DNA from: Bacteroidota bacterium
Lineage (GTDB): Bacteria > Bacteroidota > Rhodothermia > Balneolales > HLUCCA01
DNA: 64,000 nucleotides
NCBI GenBank assembly: GCA_020832235.1
Contig: JAFIEZ010000018.1
Coordinates: forward strand, 62,001 to 126,000
Direction: 5' to 3'
The notes under the pieces are model-generated. The model did no database searches and was not told the DNA's origin. It was given only the letters and a program-made list of their open reading frames with translations. Shown in pieces: positions 12,437 through 29,007 of this stretch. Numbering within the stretch: the first letter of the stretch is position 1; each line of letters opens with the position of its first letter. A program made the position numbers and the translations under genes.

Positions 12437-12453
12437 TTGGCATGACAGTTGAA
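12437..12453 (+). promoter_or_regulatory. Sigma-54-like -24/-12 promoter of the exopolysaccharide operon
   Basis: TTGGCATGACAGTTGAA fits the sigma-54 consensus TTGGCAYRN4TTGCW at every fixed position except the C of the -12 GC (here GA). GG and the -12 G are 10 bp apart as required. The predicted start near 12463 leaves a leader of about 27 nt before the ATG at 12491. Confidence 0.55.
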
Positions 12454-12456
12454 AGC

Positions 12457-12483
12457 GTGTATTGAAACTTTAATCCAATACAC
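12457..12483 (+). promoter_or_regulatory. Perfect inverted repeat at the operon leader
   Basis: GTGTATTG and CAATACAC (8-bp perfect arms, 11-nt loop) span the predicted start site and end 7 nt before the ATG at 12491. It could be a leader hairpin that hides the ribosome site, or a repressor operator overlapping the start. Confidence 0.45.
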
Positions 12484-12490
12484 TCTTACT

Positions 12491-12925
12491 ATGAAAGCAA
12501 AGCAAACATTCAACATCTTCCTTGTAGATGACGACCAGTTTTATTTAGCTCTTTTAAATCAAAAGTTAATCTCAAATGACTACCAGTACGTTAAAACATT
12601 TACCAATGGTGTCGACTGTCTGAACGCACTTGGTGACAAGCCTGATGTAATTTTCCTCGACCACAACATGGATACTTTTTCGGGTTACGAAGTACTGAAA
12701 AAAGTAAAACGCTACGATCCCAACATATTTGTGGTTATGGTTTCCGGCCAGGAGGATATAAAAACAGCCGTAGACTCTCTAAAACATGGGGCATTCGATT
12801 ACATCCTAAAGACGGGCAACGATCAGCATAAAATCAATGAAGTGCTTGACAAAATTTATCAGGTAAAGGAGCTTCAAGCCCGTAAAAAACCAAATATTCT
12901 GAAATCCCTTTTCAGCATTCTGTAA
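12491..12925 (+). CDS. Single-domain response regulator
   Basis: A 144-residue receiver domain with no output domain. The ATG at 12491 is preferred over one 42 nt upstream because the fold starts right after it. Acidic pocket D13-D15, phosphoacceptor D57 (IFLDHNM), switch Ser in VSGQED, and conserved Lys in YILKTG are all present. It closely resembles the receiver of the sigma-54 activator at 27658 (shared VSGQE, AV, LK, GA, DYI, K pattern), so the two may be phosphorylated by the same kinase. It is the first gene of the exopolysaccharide operon, behind the sigma-54-like promoter; it may act as a phosphate sink or by protein contact. Confidence 0.85.
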   Translation: MKAKQTFNIFLVDDDQFYLALLNQKLISNDYQYVKTFTNGVDCLNALGDKPDVIFLDHNMDTFSGYEVLKKVKRYDPNIFVVMVSGQEDIKTAVDSLKHGAFDYILKTGNDQHKINEVLDKIYQVKELQARKKPNILKSLFSIL

Positions 12926-12951: not shown

Positions 12952-13707
12952 ATGAGAAAGTTCTATATCAATACTGCTGTCATACTTGCCGCTTTAACAT
13001 TACAGTCATGTGCAGTTACGAACATATTCGTAGAGCCCGGCGGGAAACCCGACACCTCCATTGCTTCACTCGACAGTATTTTCTACAACAATTCCCGTTA
13101 TGAATACCACATACAGGTTGACGATAAAGTTAACATCAGCGTATGGCAACAAGACGAATTGAGTATAGGCTCGGTCTACGGTATTTACAACTCCAATGAG
13201 GTGTATGGCAAATGGCTGTTGGTTGACGGCAACGGCAACATCGAAGTTCCTAGAATTGGAACAATGAACGTAAAACACATGACGGTTATCTCACTGAAAG
13301 ATTCACTCGCTGCACGTTTCGGGGAATGGTTGGTAAACCCGATTGTAGATGTAAAAATTATGAACAAAGAAATCAGTGTTTTAGGCGAGGTACGGAACCC
13401 ACAGGTTATCACATTAGACACAGAACAAGCACGTCTGCTCGATATCATAGCCAAAGCAAACGGTTTTGAGTACTATGCAGATACCAGGCGCATCAAGGTA
13501 CTCCGCCAGGTTGGGCAAGATGTCTATGTAGCCAATATCGATTTAAGTCAGGGCGATTTTTATCTAAAGAGAAACATCGCATTATACCCTGGGGATGTTG
13601 TGATTGTTCCTGCGAGAAATAGCAAAAGAATTGACAGACAACTCTCCAACATCATTCCATTTACCTCTGTTGCTACTGCAGTGGCAATTTTATTCAACGC
13701 ATTTTAA
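12952..13707 (+). CDS. Polysaccharide export lipoprotein (Wza-like)
   Basis: A 251-residue outer-membrane polysaccharide export protein. The signal peptide ends in the lipobox LQSC, with the lipidated Cys at residue 20. The Poly_export domain runs from about 50 to 140 (YHIQVDDKVNISVWQQDE, VDGNGNIEVPRIGTMNV), followed by an SLBB-like domain (ISVLGEVRNPQVITL, LYPGDVVIVPA). A hydrophobic segment at the C terminus (about 233-250) recalls the membrane-crossing helix of Wza. It pairs with the Wzc-like protein encoded 9 nt downstream, as in Wzx/Wzy systems. Probably the channel through which the polymer leaves the cell. Confidence 0.9.
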   Translation: MRKFYINTAVILAALTLQSCAVTNIFVEPGGKPDTSIASLDSIFYNNSRYEYHIQVDDKVNISVWQQDELSIGSVYGIYNSNEVYGKWLLVDGNGNIEVPRIGTMNVKHMTVISLKDSLAARFGEWLVNPIVDVKIMNKEISVLGEVRNPQVITLDTEQARLLDIIAKANGFEYYADTRRIKVLRQVGQDVYVANIDLSQGDFYLKRNIALYPGDVVIVPARNSKRIDRQLSNIIPFTSVATAVAILFNAF

Positions 13708-13716
13708 AGCAGAGCC

Positions 13717-15924
13717 ATGGAAGAAAGCTTACGCATACTCAAACCATATCTGAGGGGATTACCACTCATTATCGTTGCCATGGTCATCGGCTATGCAATA
13801 ATGGCACAGTACCTAAACTACGTAACGCCAAAGTATGAAAGTGTAACGCGCCTGAAACTTGCCGATACTAATGAAGGGGTACCGAATAGTAATCTATTTA
13901 AAGACTTTGATGTCTTTGCAACATCACATAAAATTGCTGCCGAGACGGAAGTTCTCAAGTCACAAATGCTCATCGACAAGACACTCAATTACCTCGATTT
14001 TGACATCGAAATTTATCGGGTTGGTAAAGTGCGAACGACAGAGCTCTACCATGACTCCCCATTTACCGTCGAGTTTCTATCGATTGAAAACCAACTTCTA
14101 GACAGGCCGTTCAATCTTCAGCTCCGAGAAGACCTTACATTTACATTAGTGCACCCGAACGGCGATGAAATCAATGCTAGCCTGGGTGACACGCTCAAGG
14201 TAAGCGGTGCGAAACTCCTCCTGTCAATAAATCAATCTTTTATTAACTCGAGGAGCATAGTCCATATAGAGGATGACTATCAATTTAAACATCTGAGCAG
14301 GTCAGAACTGGTTTCCCAAATCAAGGGTAACCTGTCTATCCTGCCGGTGGATAAAGAAGTTGCCGTTATACGTCTGGTTTTTGCTTCTCCCCATCCCAAA
14401 AAAGCCGCTCGTTTTCCTGATATTCTTGCACGAACCTACATTGAAGACTACATCTCTACCAAATCTGAGGCTGCGCGTCTTACGATGGATTTCCTTGATA
14501 ATCAGGTGGTTGAAGTAAGGCGTAAGCTATCTCAAATTGAACTAGACATTGAAGCGTACAGAAACCAAGAAAAGATTACCAATATCCAGCAGGAATCAGA
14601 AACTATACTCCGAGAACTTTCACAGATGAAAATTCAGCAGACCAACTTGCTTATGAGTCTGGAAGCCATTAACGAGCTGTACCGCTATATACAAGGTGGT
14701 GCTGAAAACTTCGAGGAACTTGCCCCCAATTTCGAAGCATTTACCGATCTGCTCTCTACCGAACTGATAAAAAAAATAAAAGATCTTAGAGCCGAAAAAC
14801 GCGACTTATTACTCATTTATACCCCAAGAGAACCCAGGGTAATGGTTATTGATGATAAGCTGGATGATCTTTACGCTTATTTAATTGAGAGTATATCAAA
14901 CACAAGACGAAATCTTGAAATAAAGCACGAAAACCTTTCACGAGACATAAGCATTACAGAACTTCAACTGATTGCTTTCCCCGAAAAAGAGCGCCTCCTA
15001 ACCATTTTAAAGCGTGAATTTGAAATCTATCAAGCGTCGTATAACTTTCTGAATGAAAAGAAGATTGAAGCTGAGATCGCTTATGCGGCCTCAATCTCAT
15101 TTCATCGAATTATTGAGCATGCAACAGTCCCCAAACTACCCTTCTCCCCTAATTATGTTGTTCTCAAAATCGTAGCAGCGCTGCTAAGCGCAGGAGGTAT
15201 AATTGTATTGATATTTCTTGTTCATGCCATAAAAGCGCGGGTAAACGATCTGCTGACTATTGAATCGACCTCCGCAATTCCAGTGGCTGTAACCACTCCT
15301 CAACTGAAAAACATAAAGGTTTTGCAAGAACACTTCCTGCACCAGACTAACAAGCTTGAGATGAAAAAACTATTGCTTCCTGGCAAAAAGGTTACATTCA
15401 ACGGATTTTCTAATAAAGAAGGGAAATCATTTAACGCACTTCACCTTGCTGAAGCTATATCCAAACAAAATAGAAAGGTACTTTTCATTGACATTGAAAA
15501 CAATCTCGGCCTAAGTAAGGCAGAATCCGGAGAAATCTTCCTATTAACCGAAACACTTTCTATAGTTCATTTAGATAATCCTGATTACAGATTCTATACC
15601 AATGATCAGATTGCAGATTTGATTAAAACGCTCAGCGAATACTTTGACAATACCGTTATTTTAAATGCCAATATTGGCACGCAAATGGCTCTACAGATTA
15701 TGAAAGCCTCCGAGGTTAATTTCGTCGTAGTCGACACTCGCTTAACTCCGGCAAAACAAATCCCCCTGATCGACTTGCTAAAAGAGGAGTATGGATTTGA
15801 GCACTTTTACTTCATTCTCAATCGCATTGCTTATAATCCAAATATCGTTATTGAGGTTAGTAACTGGGTGCTTGAAGACTTAGGTTTTAAACAAAGCCCA
15901 TTCAAGACTCTTACCTATGCGTAG
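13717..15924 (+). CDS. Wzc-like polysaccharide co-polymerase with degenerate kinase domain
   Basis: A 735-residue inner-membrane protein. N-terminal membrane segment (LPLIIVAMVIGYAIMAQYL), a Wzz domain, a long coiled coil (about 250-440), a GNVR-like region and a second membrane segment (about 488-510) form the chain-length part. The C-terminal domain has the fold of a BY-type tyrosine kinase, but its P-loop reads SNKEGKSFNA, the Walker A' motif is VLFIDIENN, and the Walker B position reads VILNANIG instead of the normal IDTPP. No tyrosine cluster is found at the C terminus. It overlaps the flippase gene by 8 nt. It probably controls chain length and contacts the export channel; kinase activity is doubtful. 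Confidence 0.85.
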   Translation: MEESLRILKPYLRGLPLIIVAMVIGYAIMAQYLNYVTPKYESVTRLKLADTNEGVPNSNLFKDFDVFATSHKIAAETEVLKSQMLIDKTLNYLDFDIEIYRVGKVRTTELYHDSPFTVEFLSIENQLLDRPFNLQLREDLTFTLVHPNGDEINASLGDTLKVSGAKLLLSINQSFINSRSIVHIEDDYQFKHLSRSELVSQIKGNLSILPVDKEVAVIRLVFASPHPKKAARFPDILARTYIEDYISTKSEAARLTMDFLDNQVVEVRRKLSQIELDIEAYRNQEKITNIQQESETILRELSQMKIQQTNLLMSLEAINELYRYIQGGAENFEELAPNFEAFTDLLSTELIKKIKDLRAEKRDLLLIYTPREPRVMVIDDKLDDLYAYLIESISNTRRNLEIKHENLSRDISITELQLIAFPEKERLLTILKREFEIYQASYNFLNEKKIEAEIAYAASISFHRIIEHATVPKLPFSPNYVVLKIVAALLSAGGIIVLIFLVHAIKARVNDLLTIESTSAIPVAVTTPQLKNIKVLQEHFLHQTNKLEMKKLLLPGKKVTFNGFSNKEGKSFNALHLAEAISKQNRKVLFIDIENNLGLSKAESGEIFLLTETLSIVHLDNPDYRFYTNDQIADLIKTLSEYFDNTVILNANIGTQMALQIMKASEVNFVVVDTRLTPAKQIPLIDLLKEEYGFEHFYFILNRIAYNPNIVIEVSNWVLEDLGFKQSPFKTLTYA

Positions 15925-17152
15925 CCTGTCTGTGAAGTATAAAACGGCTTTATTATTTGCAGATCAAGCTATTTTCAGCGGAACCAGCTTTATGGTAACG
16001 GTTCTGCTTGCCCGCAGTCTTTCGGTAGAAGATTTCGGACTTTATGCAGCAATCATCCTAGTTTTGTACCTCATTTCTAGCCTAATAAGTGCATTTGTGA
16101 TACAACCTCTGCAGGTAAGTCTGCAGGCTACTGAAAACAAACCCGCCTATCTGGCCTTTACGTTCTGGTTTCAGCTCGCGGGGAGCATTGCCCTTATAGT
16201 CCTGATGTATATCCTGCTGCTGCTTCCGTTTCCAATTTTATCTGCATATGCTATGCTTGCGGTTCCTGCAGCTTTATTTTCTGCCGGGTTCATGATGCAG
16301 GACTATCTTCGCAAACGACTGTTAACCGAAGACCGTATTGCCGAGACGTTTATAACGGACACATTGCTCATGGCAGGACATTTTGCTGCGGCAGGATACA
16401 TCTTTTTGTACGGCATCCCTTCCTTATATCTTGTGATTACCTTGCTTGGTCTTGGCTACCTTCCCGCATTAGCAGCAGGGTTTATATTTGTACGGCCGCC
16501 TATGAATGGATTCTCACTTTGGTCAGGCTACCTGAAAGAGCATCTGGATCAGGGTAAATGGTTGTTTTACACAGCACTCGTACAATGGTGGGCCGGAAAT
16601 TTATTTGTTGTAGCATCCGGTTTTTTTCTGGGAGCTACCGCCCTTGGTGCCTTGCGATTAGTCCAAACCGTATTTGGCGTATTAAATGTTTTGTTTCAAA
16701 CCTTCGAGAACTATGTTCTGCCCCAAACTGCAAGCCGAATGCATCATTCATTTGATGAAGGCCGGTGTTTTCTAAGGAAAATCGGTGGGCAAACATTCGT
16801 GGCTGTAAGTGCATTGCTTCTGATACTCTTTGTTTTTTCAGACACCATCATTGTACTAGCCGGAGGTGAACAATTTAGAGCATATGGGTTTCTTGTGAAA
16901 GGAATGGCGGTTTTATACGCACTTATTTTTGCAGGTTACCCTATTCGTATTGCAATCCGGGCACTGGTATTGAATAAAGTATTCTTTAAAGGTTACGTAC
17001 TCACCTTCATTTTTGGAGTACTGAGCTCGTATCTGCTCCTCTCACATTTTGATCTGGCTGGCGCTGTTGCCGGCCTCATCGGTTCACAAATTATATTGCT
17101 GATTTACTGGCAAATTCAGCTTAAAAAAAGGGAATTCATACTATGGAAATAA
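15917..17152 (+). CDS. Wzx-type polysaccharide flippase
   Basis: A 411-residue polytopic protein of the oligosaccharide flippase (MOP) family, with about 12 hydrophobic segments. The N terminus (FADQAIFSGTSFMVTVLLARSLSVEDFGLYA) is typical of the family. It should flip undecaprenyl-linked repeat units to the periplasm, where the Wzy-like protein encoded at 18253 joins them. The gene overlaps the co-polymerase gene by 8 nt and the next glycosyltransferase gene by 10 nt, so the three are translationally coupled. Confidence 0.87.
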   Translation: MRSLSVKYKTALLFADQAIFSGTSFMVTVLLARSLSVEDFGLYAAIILVLYLISSLISAFVIQPLQVSLQATENKPAYLAFTFWFQLAGSIALIVLMYILLLLPFPILSAYAMLAVPAALFSAGFMMQDYLRKRLLTEDRIAETFITDTLLMAGHFAAAGYIFLYGIPSLYLVITLLGLGYLPALAAGFIFVRPPMNGFSLWSGYLKEHLDQGKWLFYTALVQWWAGNLFVVASGFFLGATALGALRLVQTVFGVLNVLFQTFENYVLPQTASRMHHSFDEGRCFLRKIGGQTFVAVSALLLILFVFSDTIIVLAGGEQFRAYGFLVKGMAVLYALIFAGYPIRIAIRALVLNKVFFKGYVLTFIFGVLSSYLLLSHFDLAGAVAGLIGSQIILLIYWQIQLKKREFILWK

Positions 17153-18249
17153 TCCATCTCATTCTGGGCAAGGCGAATCCTCAACGTATGAACGGGGTAA
17201 ATAAAGTGGTATATCAGCTGGCAACACATCAAAAAAGACAAGGCAGGAATGTATCCATCTGGGGAATCACCGCCGACCTCAGCCGCAACTTTGATGAAAG
17301 AATCTTCGAAACTCTGCTCTTCCCTGCATCGAAGAATCCCTTCGGCGTTTCGCTGCCCCTGCGCACAGCCATTAAAGGCCTAGCCGGTAAAGACGTGGTT
17401 TTTCATCTTCATGGCGGATGGGTTCCGGTTTATGCCACCATATCTAAATTGTTTCAACGGCACGGCATACGTTTCGTAATAACAGGTCATGGCGCTTACA
17501 ATACCGTAGCTATGAATCGCAGTAAATGGATTAAAAAAGCGTACTTCACGCTTTTTGAAAAACCTCTTCTAAGGCGTGCATCGCAAGTACACAGTATAGG
17601 TCTGAGCGAGGTTCAGGGACTTCAAAAAATCTATCCTAATCAGAAAAGTATGCTCCTTCCCTATGGATTTGAATTCCAGCAGACAGGACTTCAATACAAG
17701 CCAAATCCAGAAGGGTTTACCATTGGTTTTGTCGGGCGTTTAGACACCTGGACCAAAGGTTTAGACCTACTAATTAGCGCATTTGATGTGTTCCAAAAAC
17801 AAAACAATGATTCCAAATTATGGATTATTGGAGACGGTACCGGTCGGGCGGATTTGGAGAAATATATAGCTGATAATGGAGTTAGCAACGTGGTGTTATG
17901 GGGTAGTAAGTTCGGGGATGAAAAAGACAACTTAATCGCCCAAATGCATGTTTTTGTTCATCCTTCGAGAAATGAGGGACTCCCGGCCTCTGTACTGGAG
18001 GCAGCTGCTATAGGTGTGCCGGTGATTGTATCTCAGCCCACCAATGTAGCTGAAACGGTAGCGTTGTATAAAGCTGGCACGGCACTTGCAACGAATACAG
18101 CAGAGGCCTTAGCAGAGGCTTTTGTTCACCTGAAACGCAATGATGAACAGACCATGAAAGCACTATCCGCTAACGCTAGAAAAATGGTATTGGAAGTGTA
18201 TACATGGGACAAACTCATTGCAAAATTCGACCCGCTGTATAGTACGTAA
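17143..18249 (+). CDS. Glycosyltransferase, family 4 (GT-B)
   Basis: A 368-residue GT4 enzyme. The N-terminal acceptor domain begins IIHLILGKANPQRMNGVNKV. The C-terminal donor domain has GFVGRLDTWTKGLDLLI (about 190-210) and the signature NEGLPASVLEAAAIGVPVIVS (about 275-297), where Glu contacts the nucleotide-sugar. It should add one sugar to the lipid-linked repeat unit in the cytosol; donor and acceptor cannot be read. It is coupled to the flippase by a 10-nt overlap. Confidence 0.88.
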   Translation: MEIIHLILGKANPQRMNGVNKVVYQLATHQKRQGRNVSIWGITADLSRNFDERIFETLLFPASKNPFGVSLPLRTAIKGLAGKDVVFHLHGGWVPVYATISKLFQRHGIRFVITGHGAYNTVAMNRSKWIKKAYFTLFEKPLLRRASQVHSIGLSEVQGLQKIYPNQKSMLLPYGFEFQQTGLQYKPNPEGFTIGFVGRLDTWTKGLDLLISAFDVFQKQNNDSKLWIIGDGTGRADLEKYIADNGVSNVVLWGSKFGDEKDNLIAQMHVFVHPSRNEGLPASVLEAAAIGVPVIVSQPTNVAETVALYKAGTALATNTAEALAEAFVHLKRNDEQTMKALSANARKMVLEVYTWDKLIAKFDPLYST

Positions 18250-18252
18250 CCT

Positions 18253-19554
18253 TTGACCACACCCAGCTCATATACCACCGATCATTCGCAGTTTCTCAAC
18301 ACGATAAGCTGGCTGCTGCTCGCCATCATGTTTATGATGATTGCAGCTTTTTTCACCTGGAGTGAAAACATTATGATTACCCGGGTGATTAAGGTAATTG
18401 GGCGAATGGGTATGCTTGGAGCCTCATGGCTGGTTTACATGAAAATCATAAACTACGGCGCCGTTGATTCCCTGAAGGTACAAAATCATCTTGCCATCGG
18501 ACTTTATCTGGCCTATCTCGCCCTCGGTTTGGCTTCATTTTTATGGACATCCGACCTTGGCGTAAGCGCGCTTCAATGGTTTATGACCTCACAGACGCTC
18601 ATCTTCTGCTTTTTCTTTATTAAGAGTCTGTATTTGCTCAATGAATACTTTCCCGGGCATAACATCAGATTGTACAATATTCTGGGTAACTCCATATTCG
18701 CAATCATTGTCATTTTTATAGTAGGGATGTGGGTCAACCCCGATGAGTTTATCCGTTACACGCATGGAGGCACCGAGGCGCGTCTTGGGGGCTTCATTAT
18801 GAATCCGAACGAACTCGGTATGCTTGCGGGCGTAGGTGTTGCCGGTTTCCTGTTCGACGTAAAACGTAATCATCAGAAATGGTTCACCATTTTCAAGATT
18901 CTCGTTCTCTTTTACGCCCTGTTTCTAACCGGCTCCCGTTCATCGCTTATCGGCGCGGTTTTCATCATTCTGTTTTATATCATGCTAACCGACAATATAC
19001 GCCTTAAGCTGGCCATTATAGGCGGAATGTTGTTGGCACTACCTCCTCTTGTTCACACAGTCATCTTGAAAGATGGAGATACAGATCGCATAGAAGAAGT
19101 GCTGAGCATGACCGGTCGACTACCTTTTTGGCAGGGACTCATCAACGAAGGATTGCCGCGCGAACCATGGCTCGGATTTGGTTTCATGAGAATCGATTAT
19201 AACGACCACTTTCAATCAAGACACAGTTACCCGGGTTTGATGACGCACAACACCTTCCTACAAGTATTGATGAATCTGGGATTCGTCGGACTTGTGATCG
19301 TGACCTTTCAGATGATTTTCACCTTCAAAGGCATCTTCCGCGAAGAACCGGAGAAAAAACTCATGCTGCTCAGCATTATGATCCCCATCATGATTAACTC
19401 CTTTACAGAGTTCGGCATATTCGGGGAATCCAATTTTGGCATTCTGTTTTACCAGCTCATCATCCTTTACATCATCTTTAAACGCAATCCGATAATTACC
19501 CCGGCGCAGCGCCTGCACCTCAAACGTAAACGACCTGACCTTCAATTGTCCTGA
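18253..19554 (+). CDS. O-antigen ligase/Wzy-type polymerase
   Basis: A 433-residue polytopic protein of the Wzy_C/O-antigen ligase superfamily, with about 10-12 membrane segments. The conserved periplasmic loop region contains GSRSSLIGA (about 220) and the large-loop motif HNTFLQVLMNLGFVGL (about 333-348). It begins at TTG three bases after the previous stop; the nearest ATG would cut into the first membrane segment. In this setting, with a flippase and co-polymerase, the polymerase role is more likely than a ligase. Confidence 0.85.
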   Translation: MTTPSSYTTDHSQFLNTISWLLLAIMFMMIAAFFTWSENIMITRVIKVIGRMGMLGASWLVYMKIINYGAVDSLKVQNHLAIGLYLAYLALGLASFLWTSDLGVSALQWFMTSQTLIFCFFFIKSLYLLNEYFPGHNIRLYNILGNSIFAIIVIFIVGMWVNPDEFIRYTHGGTEARLGGFIMNPNELGMLAGVGVAGFLFDVKRNHQKWFTIFKILVLFYALFLTGSRSSLIGAVFIILFYIMLTDNIRLKLAIIGGMLLALPPLVHTVILKDGDTDRIEEVLSMTGRLPFWQGLINEGLPREPWLGFGFMRIDYNDHFQSRHSYPGLMTHNTFLQVLMNLGFVGLVIVTFQMIFTFKGIFREEPEKKLMLLSIMIPIMINSFTEFGIFGESNFGILFYQLIILYIIFKRNPIITPAQRLHLKRKRPDLQLS

Positions 19555-19555
19555 T

Positions 19556-21964
19556 ATGAACCTCTTCTTCGAATCACTTAATTATACTGCTGTAACCGAA
19601 GGCCAACATCGTACACTGCCATATTACAGCATATCTAATGCAGACGGGTCGCCGAGGTGGGTTTTTCCATCGCACCTTGCAAAACCATACTTCTTGAAGT
19701 TTTACCATGTAGCTGGTTTTAAATCACAGGCCTTCGCGCTGCTTAGCATGCTGATTTTTGCATTTCGACTGCAACGCTTCATTTACAAAAGAACGGAGGT
19801 TCTTCTAAACGGTGATCAGTCCATACGTGACGGAAACGTAAACCTTTTCACAGATCAATGGGCTTTGTTTACCGGAACCGCAGGACCAAATAACAAGATG
19901 GTACTATTCGTACAGAAAGGGGACAAATCTGGATTCATGAAAATACCCGTTTCGGGGAATGCCTCCGAACTAGTAAAAAAAGAGCACTTAGGAACACTCA
20001 AAATCAAAGCGCTTAATCCGGAAAGCTTTGCAGTTCCTGAAACCGAGCTGTTGGGAAAAGGCATACTTAGGATGGATGACATTGCAAAAGATGGCAGTCG
20101 TTCAAACACGTTCATGCAGGCACATAAGACCATGCTATCTGAAATTGCAGCAAAAACGGCTGCAACCACAACTACTCAAGAAAACGATAGCTTTCAGTCT
20201 GGCATAGCCAACCTGAAAAAAGCGTACGAATCAGGAGATTCACGGCTATCTGGTAGTATGTTGAATCGCCTCCAAACACTGGCTGATACGTTACAGCGCA
20301 GCGAGTTCACGACCTCCTTCAGCCATGGGGATTTCACACCGTGGAATATGTTTGTCAATAACGGCGTTCTGGCCGTTTATGATTGGGAGCTGGCTCATGA
20401 TACACATCCATTATTATTTGATGCGTTTCATTTCATCATACAGAAGGGCATATTGATTGACCGCAAATCCTGGAAGGAAATCCGTACCGAAATAAACATG
20501 TTGACCGGCTCATGGGGTGTTGATCTTTGTCAAAATCATAACACAACATTAGATCATTGTCTCAAACTGTATCTTTTCGTTAACGTCAGTAACCATCTGG
20601 AGCTGTACAGTCGTCAGAAAGAGTGGCATACCCAGATACATTGGCTCATAGAGACTTGGAATGAAGCTTTATGCGACGTATTGAGTACATCGGAGAATAA
20701 CAGAGGATTGTTGATTGATGACATCTTTGTCCGGTTGCATAATACACCATATGCAACGATAAAATTTCCAAACATCCCTCCCTCTGAACTTAGTGCCTAT
20801 TCTGATATAGATATTTGTCTGAAAAAATATGACGCCCTGAATCTGATTAACCAACTTAAATCACATTCACTGGTACAGAAAGTCATCGTGAATAAAACAT
20901 CGTTTATGGCCACGGTGCAGATTATCTTAAAAAATAATGATGTACTGAATCTTGATCTTATCTGGCAACTGAAGTGGAAAAATCTCGAAATGATGCCTGT
21001 TGATGGTGTTCTAAGCCGTGTTCAAACGAATCGTTTTGGGATTAAAGTCATGAAACCAACAGACCTGATAAACTATCTGGGGCTGTTCTACGGCCTAAAT
21101 GGAGCGATGATCCCCGAGAAGTATATGAACAGTTTAGAAACGGGCAAGATGAACACATCCGTTTTGCACGCTATTATTGTTAATTCGGCACAAAAGAATG
21201 AGATTGCGAAAGAACAACTTGTAGCAGAGATTAAAAGCAAGGCACCAAACAAAGGGTTTAGCAGCGTGGTAAACAGCGCAAATTATATAATAGACACACT
21301 AAAGGGCTTCATTAAACCAAAAGGGATGATTATCACATTCAGCGGGGTAGATGGTGCTGGAAAATCAACCGTTATAGAGCATATTCGCACTGAATTTGAG
21401 AAAAAGATGCGCAGAAAGGTGGTGGTTCTACGGCACAGACCTTCGCTATTACCCATCCTAAGCGCGTGGACAAAAGGGAAAGCACAAGCCGAATCCGACG
21501 CAGCCCATACCCTCCCGCGACAGGGCTCAAATCAAAGCATGCTCAGCTCGGTGGTTCGGTTCAGCTATTATTACACCGATTACCTGGCCGGACAATTTTA
21601 CATCTACATCCGCCATGTGCTGCGAGGTGATATCGTACTGTACGACCGATATTATTTCGATTTCATTAACGACAGCGTGCGCAGCAACATCCGCCTCCCC
21701 GAGCGATTTCTACGTGCCGGATACTTCTTTCTGATGAAGCCTGACTACAATTTCTTTTTGTATGCGGATGCTGACACCATATTATCGCGAAAGCAGGAGC
21801 TGGATAGAGACACCATCAGTGCACTTACGGGCAAATATCTCACGCTTTTTAAAAACCTTGGTACTTCAAAGAAAATGGCATCCCGCTATATCGCCATTGA
21901 AAACAAAAACCTGGATGCCACCATCAACCAGATTATCAGTAAGACAACCGGAAAGGCAGCCTGA
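19556..21964 (+). CDS. APH-like / nucleotidyltransferase-like / thymidylate-kinase-like fusion
   Basis: An 802-residue protein with three recognisable parts. About 100-380 is an aminoglycoside-phosphotransferase-like domain, with catalytic SHGDFTPWN (H257, D259) and the metal site DWE about 20 residues later. About 395-520 has a nucleotidyltransferase-like signature (YSDIDICL near 415-421, then LNLDLIW). About 590-802 is a thymidylate-kinase-like P-loop domain (FSGVDGAGKST near 597-605, DRYYFDF, RKQELDRDT in the lid). Upstream of the APH part, residues 1-100 are unassigned. Lying between Wzy and an acetyltransferase, it probably phosphorylates a sugar or lipid-linked intermediate; a true dTMP kinase role is unlikely. 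Domain calls are fairly firm, substrate unknown. Confidence 0.78.
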   Translation: MNLFFESLNYTAVTEGQHRTLPYYSISNADGSPRWVFPSHLAKPYFLKFYHVAGFKSQAFALLSMLIFAFRLQRFIYKRTEVLLNGDQSIRDGNVNLFTDQWALFTGTAGPNNKMVLFVQKGDKSGFMKIPVSGNASELVKKEHLGTLKIKALNPESFAVPETELLGKGILRMDDIAKDGSRSNTFMQAHKTMLSEIAAKTAATTTTQENDSFQSGIANLKKAYESGDSRLSGSMLNRLQTLADTLQRSEFTTSFSHGDFTPWNMFVNNGVLAVYDWELAHDTHPLLFDAFHFIIQKGILIDRKSWKEIRTEINMLTGSWGVDLCQNHNTTLDHCLKLYLFVNVSNHLELYSRQKEWHTQIHWLIETWNEALCDVLSTSENNRGLLIDDIFVRLHNTPYATIKFPNIPPSELSAYSDIDICLKKYDALNLINQLKSHSLVQKVIVNKTSFMATVQIILKNNDVLNLDLIWQLKWKNLEMMPVDGVLSRVQTNRFGIKVMKPTDLINYLGLFYGLNGAMIPEKYMNSLETGKMNTSVLHAIIVNSAQKNEIAKEQLVAEIKSKAPNKGFSSVVNSANYIIDTLKGFIKPKGMIITFSGVDGAGKSTVIEHIRTEFEKKMRRKVVVLRHRPSLLPILSAWTKGKAQAESDAAHTLPRQGSNQSMLSSVVRFSYYYTDYLAGQFYIYIRHVLRGDIVLYDRYYFDFINDSVRSNIRLPERFLRAGYFFLMKPDYNFFLYADADTILSRKQELDRDTISALTGKYLTLFKNLGTSKKMASRYIAIENKNLDATINQIISKTTGKAA

Positions 21965-21966
21965 AC

Positions 21967-22656
21967 GTGAAATCTCTGATTGAACATATAATTCGTTTTC
22001 GGAATCCGAAGTTTCGTTTTGATGCGAACCTGAACACCGGCGCAATCATTGGTTTTGTTTGGGGACAACTCTGGAGTCTGTTCAGAGGCTGCAAAATACT
22101 GCTGCGCTTTCGTAGTCCACGCATGGCGATGCTTGGCAAGGGAGTCAGCTTCTTTAATTTTTCCAAAATACGTTTCGGTCGTTTCATGAAACTGGGTGAC
22201 CAAGTGTATATGAGTGCACTTGGGAGCGAAGGCATTTTACTGGGTAATAATGTTGGTATCGGTGCATTTAGTCGTGTGATTGTATCCACATCGTTGAATC
22301 ACATTGGCAGTTACATCCGCATTGGGAATAATGTTGGCATTGGCGAATTCGCCTATCTTGGCGGGGCCGGCGGATTAGAAATCGGTGATGACTGTATTGT
22401 GGGACAGTACTTCAGCTGCCACCCGGAAAACCACAATTATGCAGATTCCAACAGCCTCATCCGCATGCAGGGAGTAAACCGAAGGGGGATTAAAATCGGC
22501 AACAACTGCTGGATTGGCAGCAAGGTAACCGTACTGGATGGGGTTAACATCGGGGAAGGATCTATAATTGCAGCGGGCGCGGTGGTCACAAAATCATTTC
22601 CGGCGAACAGCATCATTGGAGGCGTACCGGCCAAACTTTTAAAAAGCAGAATCTAA
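21967..22656 (+). CDS. Hexapeptide-repeat acyltransferase
   Basis: A 229-residue left-handed beta-helix acetyltransferase (WbbJ/WcaF/CatB type). It starts at GTG two bases after the previous stop. Imperfect hexapeptides run from about 75 to 215 (ILLGNNVGIGAFS, IRIGNNVGIGEFA, IKIGNNCWIGSKVTVLDG). The CatB-like catalytic His is probably in QYFSCHPENHNY, and the end IIGGVPAKLLK is classical. It should O-acetylate a sugar of the repeat unit using acetyl-CoA. It is part of the tightly packed operon, with the next gene 1 nt downstream. Confidence 0.87.
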   Translation: MKSLIEHIIRFRNPKFRFDANLNTGAIIGFVWGQLWSLFRGCKILLRFRSPRMAMLGKGVSFFNFSKIRFGRFMKLGDQVYMSALGSEGILLGNNVGIGAFSRVIVSTSLNHIGSYIRIGNNVGIGEFAYLGGAGGLEIGDDCIVGQYFSCHPENHNYADSNSLIRMQGVNRRGIKIGNNCWIGSKVTVLDGVNIGEGSIIAAGAVVTKSFPANSIIGGVPAKLLKSRI

Positions 22657-22657
22657 C

Positions 22658-23878
22658 GTGAAAACTATTCTTGCCACAGCATATGCCATCAATCCACATA
22701 AAGGCTCCGAAGATGGAATGGGATGGAATTTCGTGATGCAAATAGCTCGTTTTAACAACGTTATAGCCGTTACGAGGGAGAACAATCGCCCGCATATTGA
22801 ACGTTATATGCAGGAGAATCCCTCAGATGTTTATAAAAAGGTTTCCTTTGTATACTTCGACACCCCTTATTGGATGCGTTTCTGGAAAAAGGGAGGGCGT
22901 GGAGCAATGCTTTATTATCTGCTCTGGCAGCGAATGGTTGTTCCCTTTGTTAAAGAGCAAGGTCTCCAATTTGATGTTGTACACAATCTGAATTTTCATA
23001 ATGATTGGTCCCCCAGTTATTTATGGAAACTTGGCAAGCCATTTGTGTGGGGTCCGATTGGTCATCACCCGCTCATCCCGTCTGATTATCTGAAACCGTA
23101 CTCCAAAAAATACTTACTAAAAGACCGCCTCACCTGGCTGGTTAAAAAGCTTTTCTGGAATTACTCGGCGGCTTTAAAAAAAGCTGTGGGCAAGGCTGAT
23201 TTTATCTGGGCGATGAATCCATCGGTGAAAGATGTCATCGCTATTGGTGAAAAAAAACACATAATTGCCCCCTCTGTCGCCACACAAGACTTCGGCTGGA
23301 ATGCTGAAAAAAGCACCTCTACTTTTTCATTAATATCTGTTGGAAGACTCGTTCCTTTGAAAGGATTTGACCTCACAATTCGATCATTTGCTTCGTTCGT
23401 GCGCACATTGCCTGATGCTGAACGATGCAATGTAAGTCTTACCATTGTCGGCAGTGGGCCCGAGGAAAAACTTCTAAAGCAATTGGTGAGTGATGAGGCG
23501 GTAACTGACTGCGTTACGTTTATCAGCTGGATTGATCGAGCCGATGTGATGAAACTATTTCGAAATGCCTCCGTCTTCCTTTTTCCGTCACATGAAGGGG
23601 CCGGCATGGTAGTACCGGAGGCACTCTCATTCGGGGTACCTGTTATCACATTGGATAATGAAGGTCCCGGAGGCTTCATCGATACAGATTGCGGCATAGC
23701 TGTACCGAAGGGAGCATATGAGCCAACGGTGCAGAAGCTGGCTGAAGGAATTAGATCATTACATCAAGACCCCGCGAAGCTGGCTTCCATGAGGGGAGCT
23801 GCGCGCAAACGCTTTATAGATTTCTTCCATTGGAACCGCCGAGGGGAACAACTGAAATCCATTTACGCTAGTCTTTAA
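22658..23878 (+). CDS. Glycosyltransferase, family 4 (GT-B)
   Basis: A 406-residue GT4 enzyme starting at GTG. The N-terminal domain holds NPHKGSEDGMGWNFV, and the donor domain has SVGRLVPLKGFDLTI (about 226-240) and SHEGAGMVVPEALSFGVPVI (about 309-328). Sequence around PFVWGPIGHHP resembles enzymes of teichuronic and exopolysaccharide clusters. It adds a sugar to the repeat unit; specificity unknown. Confidence 0.87.
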   Translation: MKTILATAYAINPHKGSEDGMGWNFVMQIARFNNVIAVTRENNRPHIERYMQENPSDVYKKVSFVYFDTPYWMRFWKKGGRGAMLYYLLWQRMVVPFVKEQGLQFDVVHNLNFHNDWSPSYLWKLGKPFVWGPIGHHPLIPSDYLKPYSKKYLLKDRLTWLVKKLFWNYSAALKKAVGKADFIWAMNPSVKDVIAIGEKKHIIAPSVATQDFGWNAEKSTSTFSLISVGRLVPLKGFDLTIRSFASFVRTLPDAERCNVSLTIVGSGPEEKLLKQLVSDEAVTDCVTFISWIDRADVMKLFRNASVFLFPSHEGAGMVVPEALSFGVPVITLDNEGPGGFIDTDCGIAVPKGAYEPTVQKLAEGIRSLHQDPAKLASMRGAARKRFIDFFHWNRRGEQLKSIYASL

Positions 23879-23882
23879 ATCC

Positions 23883-24980
23883 ATGAGAATATTTGCGTTT
23901 CATTTACTGAATGATTTCAGCGGAAGTCCGAAAGTACTGAGTCAGCTCATCGCGGGCTGGGTTAAAAACGACATTGAGGTGCATGTCTGCAGCAGCTTTG
24001 AAAATCACGGATTCCTATCGGGGCTGTCGTCACAGGCAATCCTACGTCCGGTTTGGTATCGTTTTTATCAGAATAAGCTTCTTCGGTTAGCAGCACTGAT
24101 GTCCAGCCAGCTTCTCTTGATTATCAAGTTCTTCTTTATCATAAAAAAGGATGATATCATCTATGTGAATACCGTTCTGCCGTTTGGCGCGGCATTACTT
24201 GGCAAGATTAAAGGCTGCCGTGTGATTTACCACATCCACGAAACCACCATGAAACCGGCAATTCTGAAAAAAGCTTTATTTGGCATTGCAAAATTTGCCG
24301 CTGATGATGTCATATATGTCTCTAAGTACCTTGCCAATGAGGAGCCTTTTGCAGGAAAATCCACCCATGTATTGCACAATGCCATTCCGGAGGAGTTCAT
24401 CAATAGGGCAAAAAGGATACCACGTGATATTTCTATGCCGCAAAATGTACTGATGGTATGCTCGCTAAAAACTTATAAGGGTGTTCGTGAATTCGTCACG
24501 CTAGCTGCGAGACTCAAAAAATATCGATTCCGATTGGTAGTAAATGCATCGTTGGAAGATATTGAGGCTTTTTTTGAGGGAACAACAATACCGGGAAACC
24601 TGGAGTTATATCCCACGCAACGGGATGTAATTCCACATTTTGCCTGGGCCGATCTGGTTATGAATCTATCACACCCCGACGGATGGGTAGAAACATTCGG
24701 CTTGACAATCATTGAAGGCATGGCTTTCCGTATACCAGCCATCGTGCCACCAGTTGGAGGAATTACCGAAGTAGTGGATGATGGTTTTAACGGCTATCAT
24801 ATTAATCCCCATGATATTGACACCCTCGAAGAGGCAATTGAAAAGATGTTTCAGAGTTCTGGTTTATATAGTCGTCTTAGTAAAAATGCCCAAATCAAAC
24901 TTAGCGCGTTTCGGGAGCAAACATTTATTGATGAAAGTCTGAAAGTAGTGTATCGAAGAAATACTACAAAGCCCATCTGA
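23883..24980 (+). CDS. Glycosyltransferase, family 4 (GT-B)
   Basis: A 365-residue GT4-type enzyme and the last gene of the first exopolysaccharide operon. The acceptor domain starts MRIFAFHLLNDFSGSPKVLS. The donor-side signature is HPDGWVETFGLTIIEGMAF (about 259-277), followed by PAIVPPVGGITEVV. The usual Gly-Arg donor loop is replaced by VCSLKTYKGVREFV. A 208-nt spacer with its own promoter elements follows. Confidence 0.85.
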   Translation: MRIFAFHLLNDFSGSPKVLSQLIAGWVKNDIEVHVCSSFENHGFLSGLSSQAILRPVWYRFYQNKLLRLAALMSSQLLLIIKFFFIIKKDDIIYVNTVLPFGAALLGKIKGCRVIYHIHETTMKPAILKKALFGIAKFAADDVIYVSKYLANEEPFAGKSTHVLHNAIPEEFINRAKRIPRDISMPQNVLMVCSLKTYKGVREFVTLAARLKKYRFRLVVNASLEDIEAFFEGTTIPGNLELYPTQRDVIPHFAWADLVMNLSHPDGWVETFGLTIIEGMAFRIPAIVPPVGGITEVVDDGFNGYHINPHDIDTLEEAIEKMFQSSGLYSRLSKNAQIKLSAFREQTFIDESLKVVYRRNTTKPI

Positions 24981-25125: not shown

Positions 25126-25142
25126 TTGGCATAAGGATTGTA
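25126..25142 (+). promoter_or_regulatory. Sigma-54-like -24/-12 promoter of the second exopolysaccharide operon
   Basis: TTGGCATAAGGATTGTA fits TTGGCAYRN4TTGCW except for GT in place of GC at -12. The GG to -12 G spacing is 10 bp. The predicted start near 25152 leaves a leader of about 37 nt before the ATG at 25189. Confidence 0.55.
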
Positions 25143-25188
25143 CCTAAGGATTCAAACACATGAATCTAGTTTAAATCCTTACAAAATT

Positions 25189-26397
25189 ATGAAAAAAAAG
25201 TCAGTAGCTATCATCGGAACTGTTGGTGTTCCGGCAAACTATGGGGGGTTCGAAACACTGACCGAGCATTTGATTAACCAGATCGGCGACCGGTATAAAC
25301 TGCATGTCTACTGCTCGGGCAAGAAATACCCAAAAAGGGATCGCAAAAAATCGTATAAAAATGCCCGCCTGCATTATGTGCCACTGGAAGCCAATGGCGT
25401 GCAAAGCATCCCTTACGATTCCTTATCCATTTTACATGCACTGTTTTTTGCAGATGTGTTGCTGATTTTGGGGGTTGCCGGTGCATGGCTGCTTCCTTTC
25501 ATAAGACTCTTCACTAATAAAAAAATCATCATATCCATTGATGGTATCGAATGGAAGCGTAACAAATGGAATATACTGGCAAAATGGTATCTGTTTTGGG
25601 CCGAGGGCCTGGCAGTAAAATACTCCCACATAGATATTTCTGATAACGAAGCTATTCAAGATTATACCGCTCAACGCTACGGAACGTTAAGTAGAATTAT
25701 TGAATATGGTGCCGATCATACCATCCCCTCAAGTGGCACTGCCAAAAGCTCAGAATTTTCATTTATTGGTCTTCCATACGCATTCAAAGTGTGTCGTATT
25801 GAACCGGAAAACAATGTGCATGTTGTTCTGAAATCATTTTCTGAAATGCCAGAATATCGGCTTGTGATGGTTGGTAATTGGGCCAACAGCTCATACGGTC
25901 AAAACTTGAAAGAGACCTATTCCTCATATTCAAATATCACAATACTGGACCCTATATACGACCAGCAGAAGCTAGACCTGATCCGATCCAACGCTGTGCT
26001 ATACATACATGGTCACTCCGCTGGCGGAACTAACCCATCATTGGTAGAAGCCATGTACCTGGGGCTGCCAATTGTCACATTTGGCGTGTCATATAATCGT
26101 GTTACCACTGAAAACAAAGCCCTCTACTTTACCACAGAAAATGAATTAAAACAGATTATTAAAAAAACCAGGCTCAGCGACATCCAACATCTAGGAAAAA
26201 CAATGGGTGAAATAGCAAAAAGACGGTACACCTGGAGACTGATTGCCGACAAGTATGATGAACTCGTACAAGAGGCCCTTCAGGCACAAAAGAAACCTTC
26301 TGTTGAGTCTCCAATTGATGAATTATCATACGATGAATTGCTGAATATGGGTCTTTCACACATTAAATACACCGAAGGCTTTTACACAAAACGATAA
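25189..26397 (+). CDS. DUF1972-type glycosyltransferase (rhamnosyltransferase-like)
   Basis: A 402-residue GT-B enzyme. The ATG at 25189 is chosen because the family N terminus follows at once (SVAIIGTVGVPANYGGFETLTEHL, the DUF1972 signature); an upstream TTG in the same frame would place translation before the predicted start of transcription. The donor domain has YIHGHSAGGTNPSLVEAMYLG (about 281-301). Relatives act on rhamnose or glucose units in capsular and exopolysaccharides, which agrees with the rfbA gene at 38339. First gene of the second operon, 12 nt before the WecA-like gene. Confidence 0.87.
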   Translation: MKKKSVAIIGTVGVPANYGGFETLTEHLINQIGDRYKLHVYCSGKKYPKRDRKKSYKNARLHYVPLEANGVQSIPYDSLSILHALFFADVLLILGVAGAWLLPFIRLFTNKKIIISIDGIEWKRNKWNILAKWYLFWAEGLAVKYSHIDISDNEAIQDYTAQRYGTLSRIIEYGADHTIPSSGTAKSSEFSFIGLPYAFKVCRIEPENNVHVVLKSFSEMPEYRLVMVGNWANSSYGQNLKETYSSYSNITILDPIYDQQKLDLIRSNAVLYIHGHSAGGTNPSLVEAMYLGLPIVTFGVSYNRVTTENKALYFTTENELKQIIKKTRLSDIQHLGKTMGEIAKRRYTWRLIADKYDELVQEALQAQKKPSVESPIDELSYDELLNMGLSHIKYTEGFYTKR

Positions 26398-26409: not shown

Positions 26410-27483
26410 ATGAACTATCTTAACTTCATTATTGTACCTGCTATTTCTTTGGCAATAGTACTTGCTATAACACCTTTTTTGCGAGTCCTGGCATTCAAAC
26501 TACACCTCGTTGACAAACCGGGTACCCGAAAAACCCATGCAGGACACATTCCACTTGTAGGTGGCCTGGCAATAAGCTTTGCCACAATTACAACATTGCT
26601 TGTGAGCAGTCCATCCTGGGTTGCACTGTCAAGTATCTCATTTATACTGATAGCGGCATTCGTTCTACTTGTTATTGGTGTAATCGACGATAAGAGTGAC
26701 CTTCGTGCTTCGTTAAAACTAACCATACAACTTGCACTTGCGTATTACGCGTTTTCTAACGGTATTCGAATCGAAAGTTTTTATGGAATTCTTGGTATAA
26801 ATGAAATTTCTCTACTACTGCAGTATATCATAACCTTAATTGTAATTACCGGCGTTGTTAATGCTTTCAACCTAATGGATGGTATTGACGGACTGGCAGC
26901 CGGTCTGGCATTCGTAGCGTTTATCCTTTTCGGGTGGATGGCCTTTATAACGGGTCAGGTCATACTCTTGTATCTCTTTTTAGCTCTCATTGGTGCTCTG
27001 ATTGGCTTTATGCGCTTCAATTTAAGTAGTAAAGCTAAAGTATTCATGGGGGATGCCGGCTCGTTATTTATCGGATTTATCATGGTAGTTTCTGCCATAT
27101 CTCTGACTCAGGCAGCACAGGGAACTCCAACCATAAGGTTTGTTTTGCCCGTAGTAGTGGGTGTACTATCACTACCCGTATTGGACTCTCTTCGCGTGTA
27201 TCGTCGCAGAGCTAAAAATGGTTTCAGTCCTTTCCGTGCTGACCGTACTCACTTCCATCACCTTGTTTTGCAATTGGGCATTAAAAACCGCACAGCCTTG
27301 TCACTAATCCTTTTAGTCTTTGCAACACTTATTACTTTGAGCATTGCTGTGGGGACTTTAGTGAGTTTCACCTATATGGTACTTACTATCATGATCGCGT
27401 TCATAGCCATTTCCTGGTTGTTGAGTCTAAATAGCAACGTGACCTATTGGAAAGAAAAAGTGCTCGAAATGGAAAAAAAATAA
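26410..27483 (+). CDS. wecA: WecA/TagO-like undecaprenyl-phosphate sugar-1-phosphate transferase
   Basis: A 357-residue polytopic enzyme of the MraY/WecA family, about 10-11 membrane helices. Conserved cytosolic loops are visible: DDKSDLRASLK (about 94-104), the catalytic NLMDGIDGLAAG (about 155-166), MGDAGSLFIGF (about 213-223) and the WecA-type loop RADRTHFHHLVLQLG (about 278-292). It transfers GlcNAc-1-phosphate (or a related sugar-phosphate) to undecaprenyl phosphate, starting repeat-unit synthesis. It may also serve another glycan. Confidence 0.87.
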   Translation: MNYLNFIIVPAISLAIVLAITPFLRVLAFKLHLVDKPGTRKTHAGHIPLVGGLAISFATITTLLVSSPSWVALSSISFILIAAFVLLVIGVIDDKSDLRASLKLTIQLALAYYAFSNGIRIESFYGILGINEISLLLQYIITLIVITGVVNAFNLMDGIDGLAAGLAFVAFILFGWMAFITGQVILLYLFLALIGALIGFMRFNLSSKAKVFMGDAGSLFIGFIMVVSAISLTQAAQGTPTIRFVLPVVVGVLSLPVLDSLRVYRRRAKNGFSPFRADRTHFHHLVLQLGIKNRTALSLILLVFATLITLSIAVGTLVSFTYMVLTIMIAFIAISWLLSLNSNVTYWKEKVLEMEKK

Positions 27484-27657: not shown

Positions 27658-29007
27658 ATGTCTTATAAAATTTTTCTTGTTGAAGATGACCCGTGGTATG
27701 GACAGCTACTCACACATCATCTTTCTCTGAATCCGGATTATGAAGTTATACTGTTTGAGAAAGGGCGGGAAATGCTGTCAAATCTGCATAAAAAACCCGG
27801 TCTTATTTGTATGGATTTTGGCCTTCCAGACATCAAAGGCGAAACTCTTCTAAATGAAATTCAATCTCGCGACAATAGTATACCTGTCATCGTAATCAGC
27901 GGTCAGGAAGAGATATCAGTTGCTGTCAATCTACTTAAGTTAGGTGCCAGAGACTATATAATAAAAGATTCACATGCCAAAGATCTGCTATGGCGCTCTG
28001 TGATCAATATTCGTGAAACCCAAAATTTGCGCGAAGAGGTAAGCTCACTCAAGGAACAACTCAATACCAAGTTTCAAATAGATAAAGGTATAATAGGCAA
28101 CAGCACGGCTATAAAAAAGACGTTTCGATTACTCGAGAAAGCCGTACAAACCAATATCAATGTTTCTCTTACAGGAGAAACGGGTACAGGTAAAGAAGTT
28201 TTTGCGAAAGTAATTCATTTTAATGGTGATCGCAAGAAAAAGCCATTCGTGGCCATTAATATGGCAGCAATTCCGAAAGATTTGGCAGAAAGCGAACTTT
28301 TTGGGCATGAAAAAGGTGCCTTTACCGGGGCTGACAACCTTAGGAAAGGGAAGTTCGAAGAAGCTAATGGAGGAACCATTTTTCTAGATGAGATTGCCGA
28401 AATGGATATGTCTCTGCAGGTTAAGCTCTTGCGGGTTCTGCAGGAAAGAGAGGTCGTTCGCGTGGGTGGCAACAAGCCCATCCCCTTTTCTGTCAGACTG
28501 ATCACAGCCACGCACAAAAATCTGGCAGAAGAGGTTAAGAAAGGAAATTTCAGGGAAGATCTTTACTTCAGAATTATCGGTATGCCTATTGAGCTTCCCC
28601 CATTACGAGAACGCGATAATGATTTATACCTCCTTGCAAAACATTTTATCGCGGAGGCTGCTAAAGAAAACGGTCTCAAAGTACCTGCACTTTCATCCGG
28701 TGCGCGTGAGAAACTGGCATCTTACCCCTTTCCGGGAAACGTACGCGAGTTAAAAGCCGTACTCGACCTGGCTACTGTGATGTGTGATGGCGGGGAAATA
28801 CAGCCAGATGACATTTCATTTCATGGTGGCATAAACAGCGACCTACTGATTAGCGGTACGAAAACATTGCGTGAACATACCAATGACATCATACAGTACT
28901 ACCTGTCGAAAAATGAGCACAACGTAATAAAAACCGCCGAGATACTGGATATAGGAAAATCAACCATATATAATCTACTCAAAAGCGGAGAAATATCTAC
29001 TCCATAA
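27658..29007 (+). CDS. Sigma-54-dependent response regulator (NtrC family)
   Basis: A 449-residue activator. The receiver domain (1-120) has E9-D11 and phosphoacceptor D53, with IIKD carrying the conserved Lys. A coiled linker leads to the AAA+ domain: Walker A GETGTGKE (about 172), the sigma-54 contact loop GAFTGA (about 220), Walker B GGTIFLDEIAEM and an arginine-finger region FREDLYFRI. The C-terminal helix-turn-helix is Fis-like (NVIKTAEILDIGKSTIYNLLKSG). It is the first gene of a signalling operon with the FIST protein 8 nt downstream and the hybrid kinase after that. It is the obvious candidate to bind the TCCA-N5-TGGA sites and switch on the exopolysaccharide promoters, much as PrsR does in PEP-CTERM loci. 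That link is inference. Confidence 0.92.
   Translation: MSYKIFLVEDDPWYGQLLTHHLSLNPDYEVILFEKGREMLSNLHKKPGLICMDFGLPDIKGETLLNEIQSRDNSIPVIVISGQEEISVAVNLLKLGARDYIIKDSHAKDLLWRSVINIRETQNLREEVSSLKEQLNTKFQIDKGIIGNSTAIKKTFRLLEKAVQTNINVSLTGETGTGKEVFAKVIHFNGDRKKKPFVAINMAAIPKDLAESELFGHEKGAFTGADNLRKGKFEEANGGTIFLDEIAEMDMSLQVKLLRVLQEREVVRVGGNKPIPFSVRLITATHKNLAEEVKKGNFREDLYFRIIGMPIELPPLRERDNDLYLLAKHFIAEAAKENGLKVPALSSGAREKLASYPFPGNVRELKAVLDLATVMCDGGEIQPDDISFHGGINSDLLISGTKTLREHTNDIIQYYLSKNEHNVIKTAEILDIGKSTIYNLLKSGEISTP

Follow-up and report, generated by a model that had tools for sequence, protein, structure and literature searches.

The stretch of DNA analysed here, called the window below, is 64,000 nucleotides of contig JAFIEZ010000018.1 from a bacterium of the order Balneolales (phylum Bacteroidota), and it carries a polysaccharide cassette in which one long gene stands between the genes of a Wzy polymerase and a hexapeptide-repeat acetyltransferase. 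This gene (19556-21964, plus strand) is an uninterrupted open reading frame (ORF) of 802 codons with an ATG start, and it encodes one intact 802-residue protein, the fusion; its ATG lies one base past the stop of the Wzy gene (18253-19554), and it ends two bases ahead of the acetyltransferase gene. A prediction made earlier from the sequence (the original prediction) had put three nucleotide-using domains into this one chain and had placed it between Wzy and an acetyltransferase in a polysaccharide locus. Both statements were borne out, as Pfam finds Wzy_C and a hexapeptide transferase on the two sides, and the motifs lie where they had been reported, with SHGDFTPWN at residues 256-264 (nt 20321-20347) and DWE at 276-278, YSDIDICL at 415-422 (nt 20798-20821) and SGVDGAGKST at 596-605 (nt 21341-21370). 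No other ORF among the 106 stop-to-stop frames of at least 100 amino acids in the window has more than one of the three loose motif patterns. The parts of the chain are as follows.

19556..20689, plus strand: family-specific N-terminal stretch and APH-type kinase domain, residues 1-378 (FTGTAGPNNK 105-114, K129, E143, H257, D259, N264, D276)
20693..21319, plus strand: probable nucleotidyltransferase (NT) domain and linker, residues 380-588 (core about 380-500; D417, D419, D467)
21320..21961, plus strand: thymidylate-kinase-like (TMK-like) P-loop kinase domain, residues 589-802 (GVDGAGKST 597-605, RHRPS 626-630, DR 697-698, RKQEL 745-749)

The APH domain is recognised by Pfam (PF01636, 25.8 bits against a gathering cut-off of 23.2), and profile A6, which represents it, matches the kinase domain of ACAD11 (1.8e-6) and choline kinase LicA (6.2e-5) in the PDB, the latter being record 4r77, whose entry title reads choline kinase and which we take to be LicA. 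H257, D259, N264, D276, E278 and D289 are identical in all 17 APH sequences compared, and the first four of these are among the 7 invariant columns of 378; in the N-lobe, position 129 is Lys in 15 of the 17 and E143 is kept in 16. The domain thus has in common with the APH/choline-kinase superfamily the HxD....N motif, the Asp of DWE and the N-lobe Lys and Glu, whereas it is set apart by roughly 100 N-terminal residues of its own, by the FTGTxGPNxK motif and by the fused NT and TMK-like domains. This N-terminal stretch (19556-19852) has the pattern RW.(F/W)P....P.FL.FY, which the stand-alone APH proteins of Leisingera and Agrobacterium share in part.

At the other end of the chain, the fold family named by the original prediction stood, since Pfam Thymidylate_kin (PF02223) is detected at 28.3 bits against a gathering cut-off of 27 and profile A5 (TMK-like) matches thymidylate kinases in the PDB (best 3.2e-13). 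Across 16 sequences, 17 of 214 columns are invariant, including those of the P-loop, D697-R698 and R745-K746-E748, and the P-loop and DR motif are unchanged in 16/16 except for S/T swaps at 604 and 605. The reaction that the name suggests did not stand. The domain shares the P-loop GxDGxGKST, the DR motif and the overall profile match with the thymidylate kinase family, but scores far under the cut-off of the equivalog for kinases of thymidylate (dTMP; NCBIfam TIGR00041, 27.9 bits against 83.25), and the dTMP-site signature REPGGT / DRxxxSTVAYQG is missing from it when it is aligned with the genome's own dTMP kinase (Tmk). In place of these motifs it carries RHRPS, DRYYFDFIxDxxRSN and RKQEL. 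Because the signature is missing, the domain is probably not a dTMP kinase, and ‘thymidylate kinase’ would name its fold family and not its reaction. A housekeeping role was rejected on the same ground together with the presence of the separate Tmk (146.9 bits) in the genome.

The middle part was the least obvious of the three. Of the 210 columns of NT and linker, D417, D419, D467 and G495 are the sole invariant ones (16/16 sequences; computed without a candidate NT protein from Streptomyces), so that the DxD pair and third acidic residue by which the DNA polymerase beta-type superfamily is recognised are present throughout. NTP_transf_5 (PF14907), an uncharacterised family, gives a weak Pfam match in 2 of 15 NT relatives (best E 0.0067), and when 14 NT stretches were compared by hhalign with six NTP_transf_5 proteins of the same order (six of seven loci; L076 has a broken frame and was left out), the probability was 84% over 123 columns, with 1% or less for control comparisons with nine families from the same loci. 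The alignment pairs DxD with DxD and LDLIW with LELHW, and it runs through the third acidic strand and the following helices; the window domain differs in reading IKF for LKG, in having Asp (LDLIW) and not Glu (ELHW) as third acid, and in its fusion to a TMK-like domain. Leave-one-out profiles recovered 13 of 14 held-out sequences at E of 2e-4 or better, and a profile built from split forms detects the window NT at 4.4e-9, while a fusion-only profile finds three split forms weakly or not at all (E 0.05, 3.2 and 5.7). We regard residues 380-588 as a likely nucleotidyltransferase domain, which, judged from these profiles, is a distant relative of NTP_transf_5.

The fusion is not peculiar to the window. 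Full-length copies of 55-56% identity are present in other Balneolales (G028, G034 and G011; G and L numbers are our handles for genomes and loci), with a further copy at a contig edge in G042; a Hymenobacter swuensis plasmid encodes a full-length fusion of 36% identity over 96%, and others were found elsewhere in Bacteroidota (G368, G206, G337, G315 and G121). Because full-length open fusions recur in several independent genomes, chance and sequencing or assembly artefacts were ruled out. Split versions, for which the original prediction had suggested a search, were found as well. In G093 (Bacteroidota) the APH gene is separate and adjoins that of NT-TMK, and the gene order is otherwise kept as far as the glycosyltransferase gene GT4c; in G190 and G210 they are likewise neighbours, among glycosyltransferases, and plasmid loci of Agrobacterium, Leisingera and Legionella each hold both. 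NT and TMK remain together in these split forms. On a Streptomyces plasmid, APH and TMK are genes of their own in a locus with Wzy, acetyltransferase and DUF1972 genes; reading it as a three-gene version was rejected, as its 271-aa NT candidate was missed by the leave-one-out profile and reached 0.2% in hhalign, which leaves a motif lead only. Hardly any residues other than catalytic ones are invariant across the whole set of relatives, and the three active sites, which were to be checked across homologues, are all conserved.

Counts of co-occurrence point in the same direction. When the NT-TMK protein of G190 was searched against 72,556 plasmid records, 8 matched, and an APH gene lay in the same locus in 8/8 (six called by tblastn, those of Streptomyces and Legionella by annotation and alignment). 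In the Bacteroidota sample of 345 genomes the APH subfamily is strong in 10, each of which has the NT domain fused or adjacent, a count that overlaps nearly all sources of the profile rows and that shows no unpaired APH relative and not an independent frequency. The underlying tallies include weaker matches: in one tally 22 of the 345 genomes matched, twelve by short P-loop matches; for APH, 14 matched, four as weak kinase matches; in another tally 220 matched, all but 11 weakly; and 7 of 59 relatives matched, two by short P-loop matches. Homologues of the window Wzy are present in 5 of the 59 relatives and 7 of the 345 phylum genomes, with the module in all of them; the module is found without a Wzy of this type in G190, G210 and G070. 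Viral-contig scans gave no full-length relative and one NT-TMK relative, and phage records gave only three weak TMK-like matches. The viral-contig relative (IMG/VR contig, L053/L073 4748-6064) has no APH gene within the 14 kb seen, its neighbours are presumably RmlC-like and ABC-F-like genes, and the contig may be a bacterial stretch. In G070 (L042 8420-12382) the fusion ends at 634 aa without the TMK domain; this cassette looks decayed, with no Wza-to-Wzy or acetyltransferase homologue in the 20 kb examined. As far as homology can tell, the three domains are a recurrent unit of exopolysaccharide loci, fused or as separate genes.

The genes around the fusion in the window form the following cassette.

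12952..13707, plus strand: outer-membrane polysaccharide export protein (Wza-like; PF02563)
13717..15924, plus strand: chain-length regulator (Wzz/PCP family; PF02706)
15917..17152, plus strand: Wzx-type flippase (PF13440)
17143..18249, plus strand: GT4 glycosyltransferase GT4a (PF00534; homologues near the split module in L044 and L045)
18253..19554, plus strand: Wzy polymerase / O-antigen ligase family (Wzy_C PF04932, 65.7 bits)
21967..22656, plus strand: hexapeptide-repeat acetyltransferase (PF00132, 48.4 bits)
22658..23878, plus strand: GT4 glycosyltransferase GT4b (PF00534; homologues near the module in L044, L045, L011, L012 and L049)
23883..24980, plus strand: GT4 glycosyltransferase GT4c (PF00534)
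25138..26397, plus strand: DUF1972 glycosyltransferase (PF09314)
26410..27483, plus strand: WecA-type polyprenyl-phosphate sugar-phosphate transferase, likely the initiating enzyme (PF00953)

The order Wzz-type, Wzx, GT4a, Wzy, fusion, acetyltransferase, GT4b, GT4c, DUF1972 is kept in L037-L041 and in the Hymenobacter locus L010, and in further Balneolales and Bacteroidota, Hymenobacter among them, the gene after the fusion encodes an acetyltransferase. The cassette is flanked by genes that we take to encode a receiver-domain protein (12449-12925), a sigma-54-type regulator (27658-29007) and a PAS histidine kinase (30098-33310); the Hymenobacter cassette (L010) is accompanied by homologues of all three, whereas L037-L041 and L042 have some of them.

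A scan of these ten genes found no sugar-nucleotide gene, which would suit an enzyme that only makes a donor: the APH domain would be an anomeric or alcohol kinase, the NT domain would make a nucleoside diphosphate (NDP)-linked sugar or alditol, the TMK-like domain would supply NDP or nucleoside triphosphate (NTP), and a glycosyltransferase of the locus would use the donor and release NDP, leaving a polymer without phosphate. Nucleotide sugars are classically salvaged by a kinase followed by a nucleotidyltransferase, and that NT and TMK remain together in split forms fits this as well. We nevertheless consider donor synthesis alone unlikely, as a TMK step would be needless for donors that release NDP and as known sugar nucleotidylyltransferases have GT-A-like folds and not the NTase fold. 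The presence of the PF00953 transferase raises another possibility, since such initiating enzymes release uridine monophosphate (UMP): the TMK-like domain might return UMP or cytidine monophosphate, from that enzyme or from a phosphate-linked transfer, to the diphosphate, with NT and APH as separate tailoring activities fused for dosage only. In keeping with this, in 7 of 8 pairs compared no other part of the chain is as conserved as the TMK-like domain (in L038/L040 it ties with the N-terminal stretch). Such recycling appears distinctly unlikely, however, as the substrate-site motifs of the domain differ from those of Tmk and the repeated pairing with APH would be left unexplained, and polysaccharide loci usually have no nucleoside monophosphate (NMP) kinase of their own. 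Moreover, an APH-like kinase beside a polymerase might phosphorylate chain ends and so stop or cap the chains, for which the kinase WbdD of ABC-transporter-dependent O antigens is a precedent. Against this, the locus has a Wzz-type length regulator, WbdD-type capping kinases are fused to a methyltransferase whereas a Pfam scan of the window chain found no methyltransferase family, and capping kinases are not known from Wzy systems, which makes capping highly improbable.

Evolutionary rates differ strongly along the cassette. Amino-acid changes per site (dN) were 0.07-0.08 for Wzy, 0.12-0.17 for Wza, TMK and acetyltransferase (TMK 0.15-0.17), 0.30-0.33 for NT, 0.57 for APH and 0.57-0.72 for the linker, and in the closer pairs all parts of the chain are under purifying selection. 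At four-fold sites every gene compared has diverged by about 0.6-0.8 (0.46 for the short linker in one pair). Synonymous sites are thus saturated across the cassette, and recent horizontal transfer of it, which the high identity of Wzy given below had suggested, was rejected. Because four-fold sites have diverged alike in all genes, Wzy is constrained and not young. Among distant Balneolales Wzy identity is 82-92%, against 81-83% for a segment of RpoB and 55-58% for the one Tmk compared; Wzy is thus conserved as much as or more than the RpoB segment in spite of the saturated synonymous sites. Wzy proteins are usually very variable, and the high conservation of this one suggests that the polymer may be structurally invariant. 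That Wzy and the module occur together could also mean that the fusion has a regulatory or scaffolding role, in which at least one domain binds but does not turn over nucleotides and controls either Wzy or the chain-length system, and the degenerate glycine motif of NT and the fast evolution of the APH part agree with this. It is very unlikely all the same, as the invariant residues are the catalytic Asp and Lys and those of the P-loop, for which a scaffold would have no use.

We propose, with a probability of roughly 0.45, that the fusion combines three activities in one tailoring enzyme for a Wzx/Wzy-dependent exopolysaccharide, which would act in the cytoplasm before export and would add a phosphate-linked group to the repeat unit or make the donor for it. 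The APH domain would phosphorylate the hydroxyl of a small alcohol or sugar, and the NT domain would then work on the new phosphate by nucleotidyl or phosphate-linked transfer; the TMK-like domain would phosphorylate a phosphate, either on an intermediate (from mono- to diphosphate) or on the NMP released by the transfer, and the decorated unit would be what the co-conserved Wzy polymerises. The original prediction had read the chain as consecutive phosphorylation and nucleotidyl transfer on one precursor, or as phosphate decoration of the polymer. From the gene fusion, the split pairs and the chemistry of the families, consecutive action on one precursor or phosphate on the polymer seems the likeliest reading, and the overall interpretation is reasonable but unproven. 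A wider version is rather unlikely: an undescribed module of APH kinase, NTP_transf_5-like NT and TMK-like phosphate kinase, which is encoded by a single gene, by two or by several and ranges from Bacteroidota to Proteobacteria and Actinomycetota, might equip the repeat unit of Wzy-dependent exopolysaccharides with a new type of substituent, linked through phosphate or diphosphate, and the co-conserved Wzy would take only the decorated unit.

Several observations weigh against the three-activity proposal. Even with an E threshold of 1, Pfam finds no family in the NT stretch of the window protein, and the gathering score of NTP_transf_5 is not reached; a sequence-profile search of the PDB with this stretch gave no NT match, and the classical hG[GS] motif is not recognisable before the DxD strand, where IKF stands at 402-404 (ATIKFPNIPP before SDIDIC). 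The fold model of NT, built from three sequences, has a mean predicted local distance difference test (pLDDT) score of 58.9, with 77-89 for core residues 41-90 of the piece; its structural matches all lie below Z 8 (maximum 7.8), with a Foldseek E of 6.2e-3 at best. Of the 50 matches listed for this model, 47 are titled nucleotidyltransferases or Rel-type synthetases, which belong to the same superfamily. (A whole-chain AlphaFold model from two sequences had a mean pLDDT of 32 and was not used.) The nucleotidyltransferase-like domain of the original prediction is hence moderately supported, with the Asp triad, the NTP_transf_5 similarity and a fold model of low confidence on its side and the lack of a Pfam detection against it. 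Further, the linker and the APH part evolve fast, and therefore the domains need not act on a common substrate. The module is sparse, being present in 5 of 59 relatives, and TMK-like genes without partners, outside polysaccharide loci, are found in G214, Haladaptatus and one Rhizobium, the last two as weaker matches from queries other than the G190 NT-TMK protein. The gene of G214 (L070 11966-12784) is a lone TMK-like gene of the fusion's family, away from polysaccharide genes.

Two known systems follow a related logic. In Lic-1, LicA kinase, LicC cytidylyltransferase and LicD transferase put phosphorylcholine on glycans (PMC10434233), so that, as in our proposal, an APH-type kinase and nucleotide-dependent steps place a phosphate-linked group on a glycan (PMC10434233). 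The window fusion differs by its extra TMK-like kinase, and LicD (PF04991) is absent from its own genome, which is 96.81% complete. LicC also has a nucleotidyltransferase fold different from the one assigned to the window NT. In the tailoring of the lasso peptide pseudomycoidin, the kinase PsmK phosphorylates the peptide and the ‘nucleotidyltransferase’ PsmN then adds one or more hexoses to the phosphate (PMC9266682, PMC8498205), again a kinase followed by a so-called nucleotidyltransferase that modifies the new phosphate; there the substrate is a peptide and the kinase is of the HPr-kinase type. By analogy, Lic-1 and pseudomycoidin are precedents of related logic, and the fusion is not thereby a member of either. 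A full-text literature search found no description of the three-domain architecture, and proteins of this kind are labelled ‘hypothetical protein’ or ‘phosphotransferase’ in the records examined.

The fusion and its split versions unite three separate annotations as one functional unit, and they give a testable prediction, that is, a gene-dependent and probably phosphate-containing feature of the polymer. The NTP_transf_5-like domain would gain a setting with a definable substrate. For the organism and its relatives, these observations suggest that exopolysaccharide synthesis includes an as yet undescribed step, which is probably a phosphate-linked decoration.

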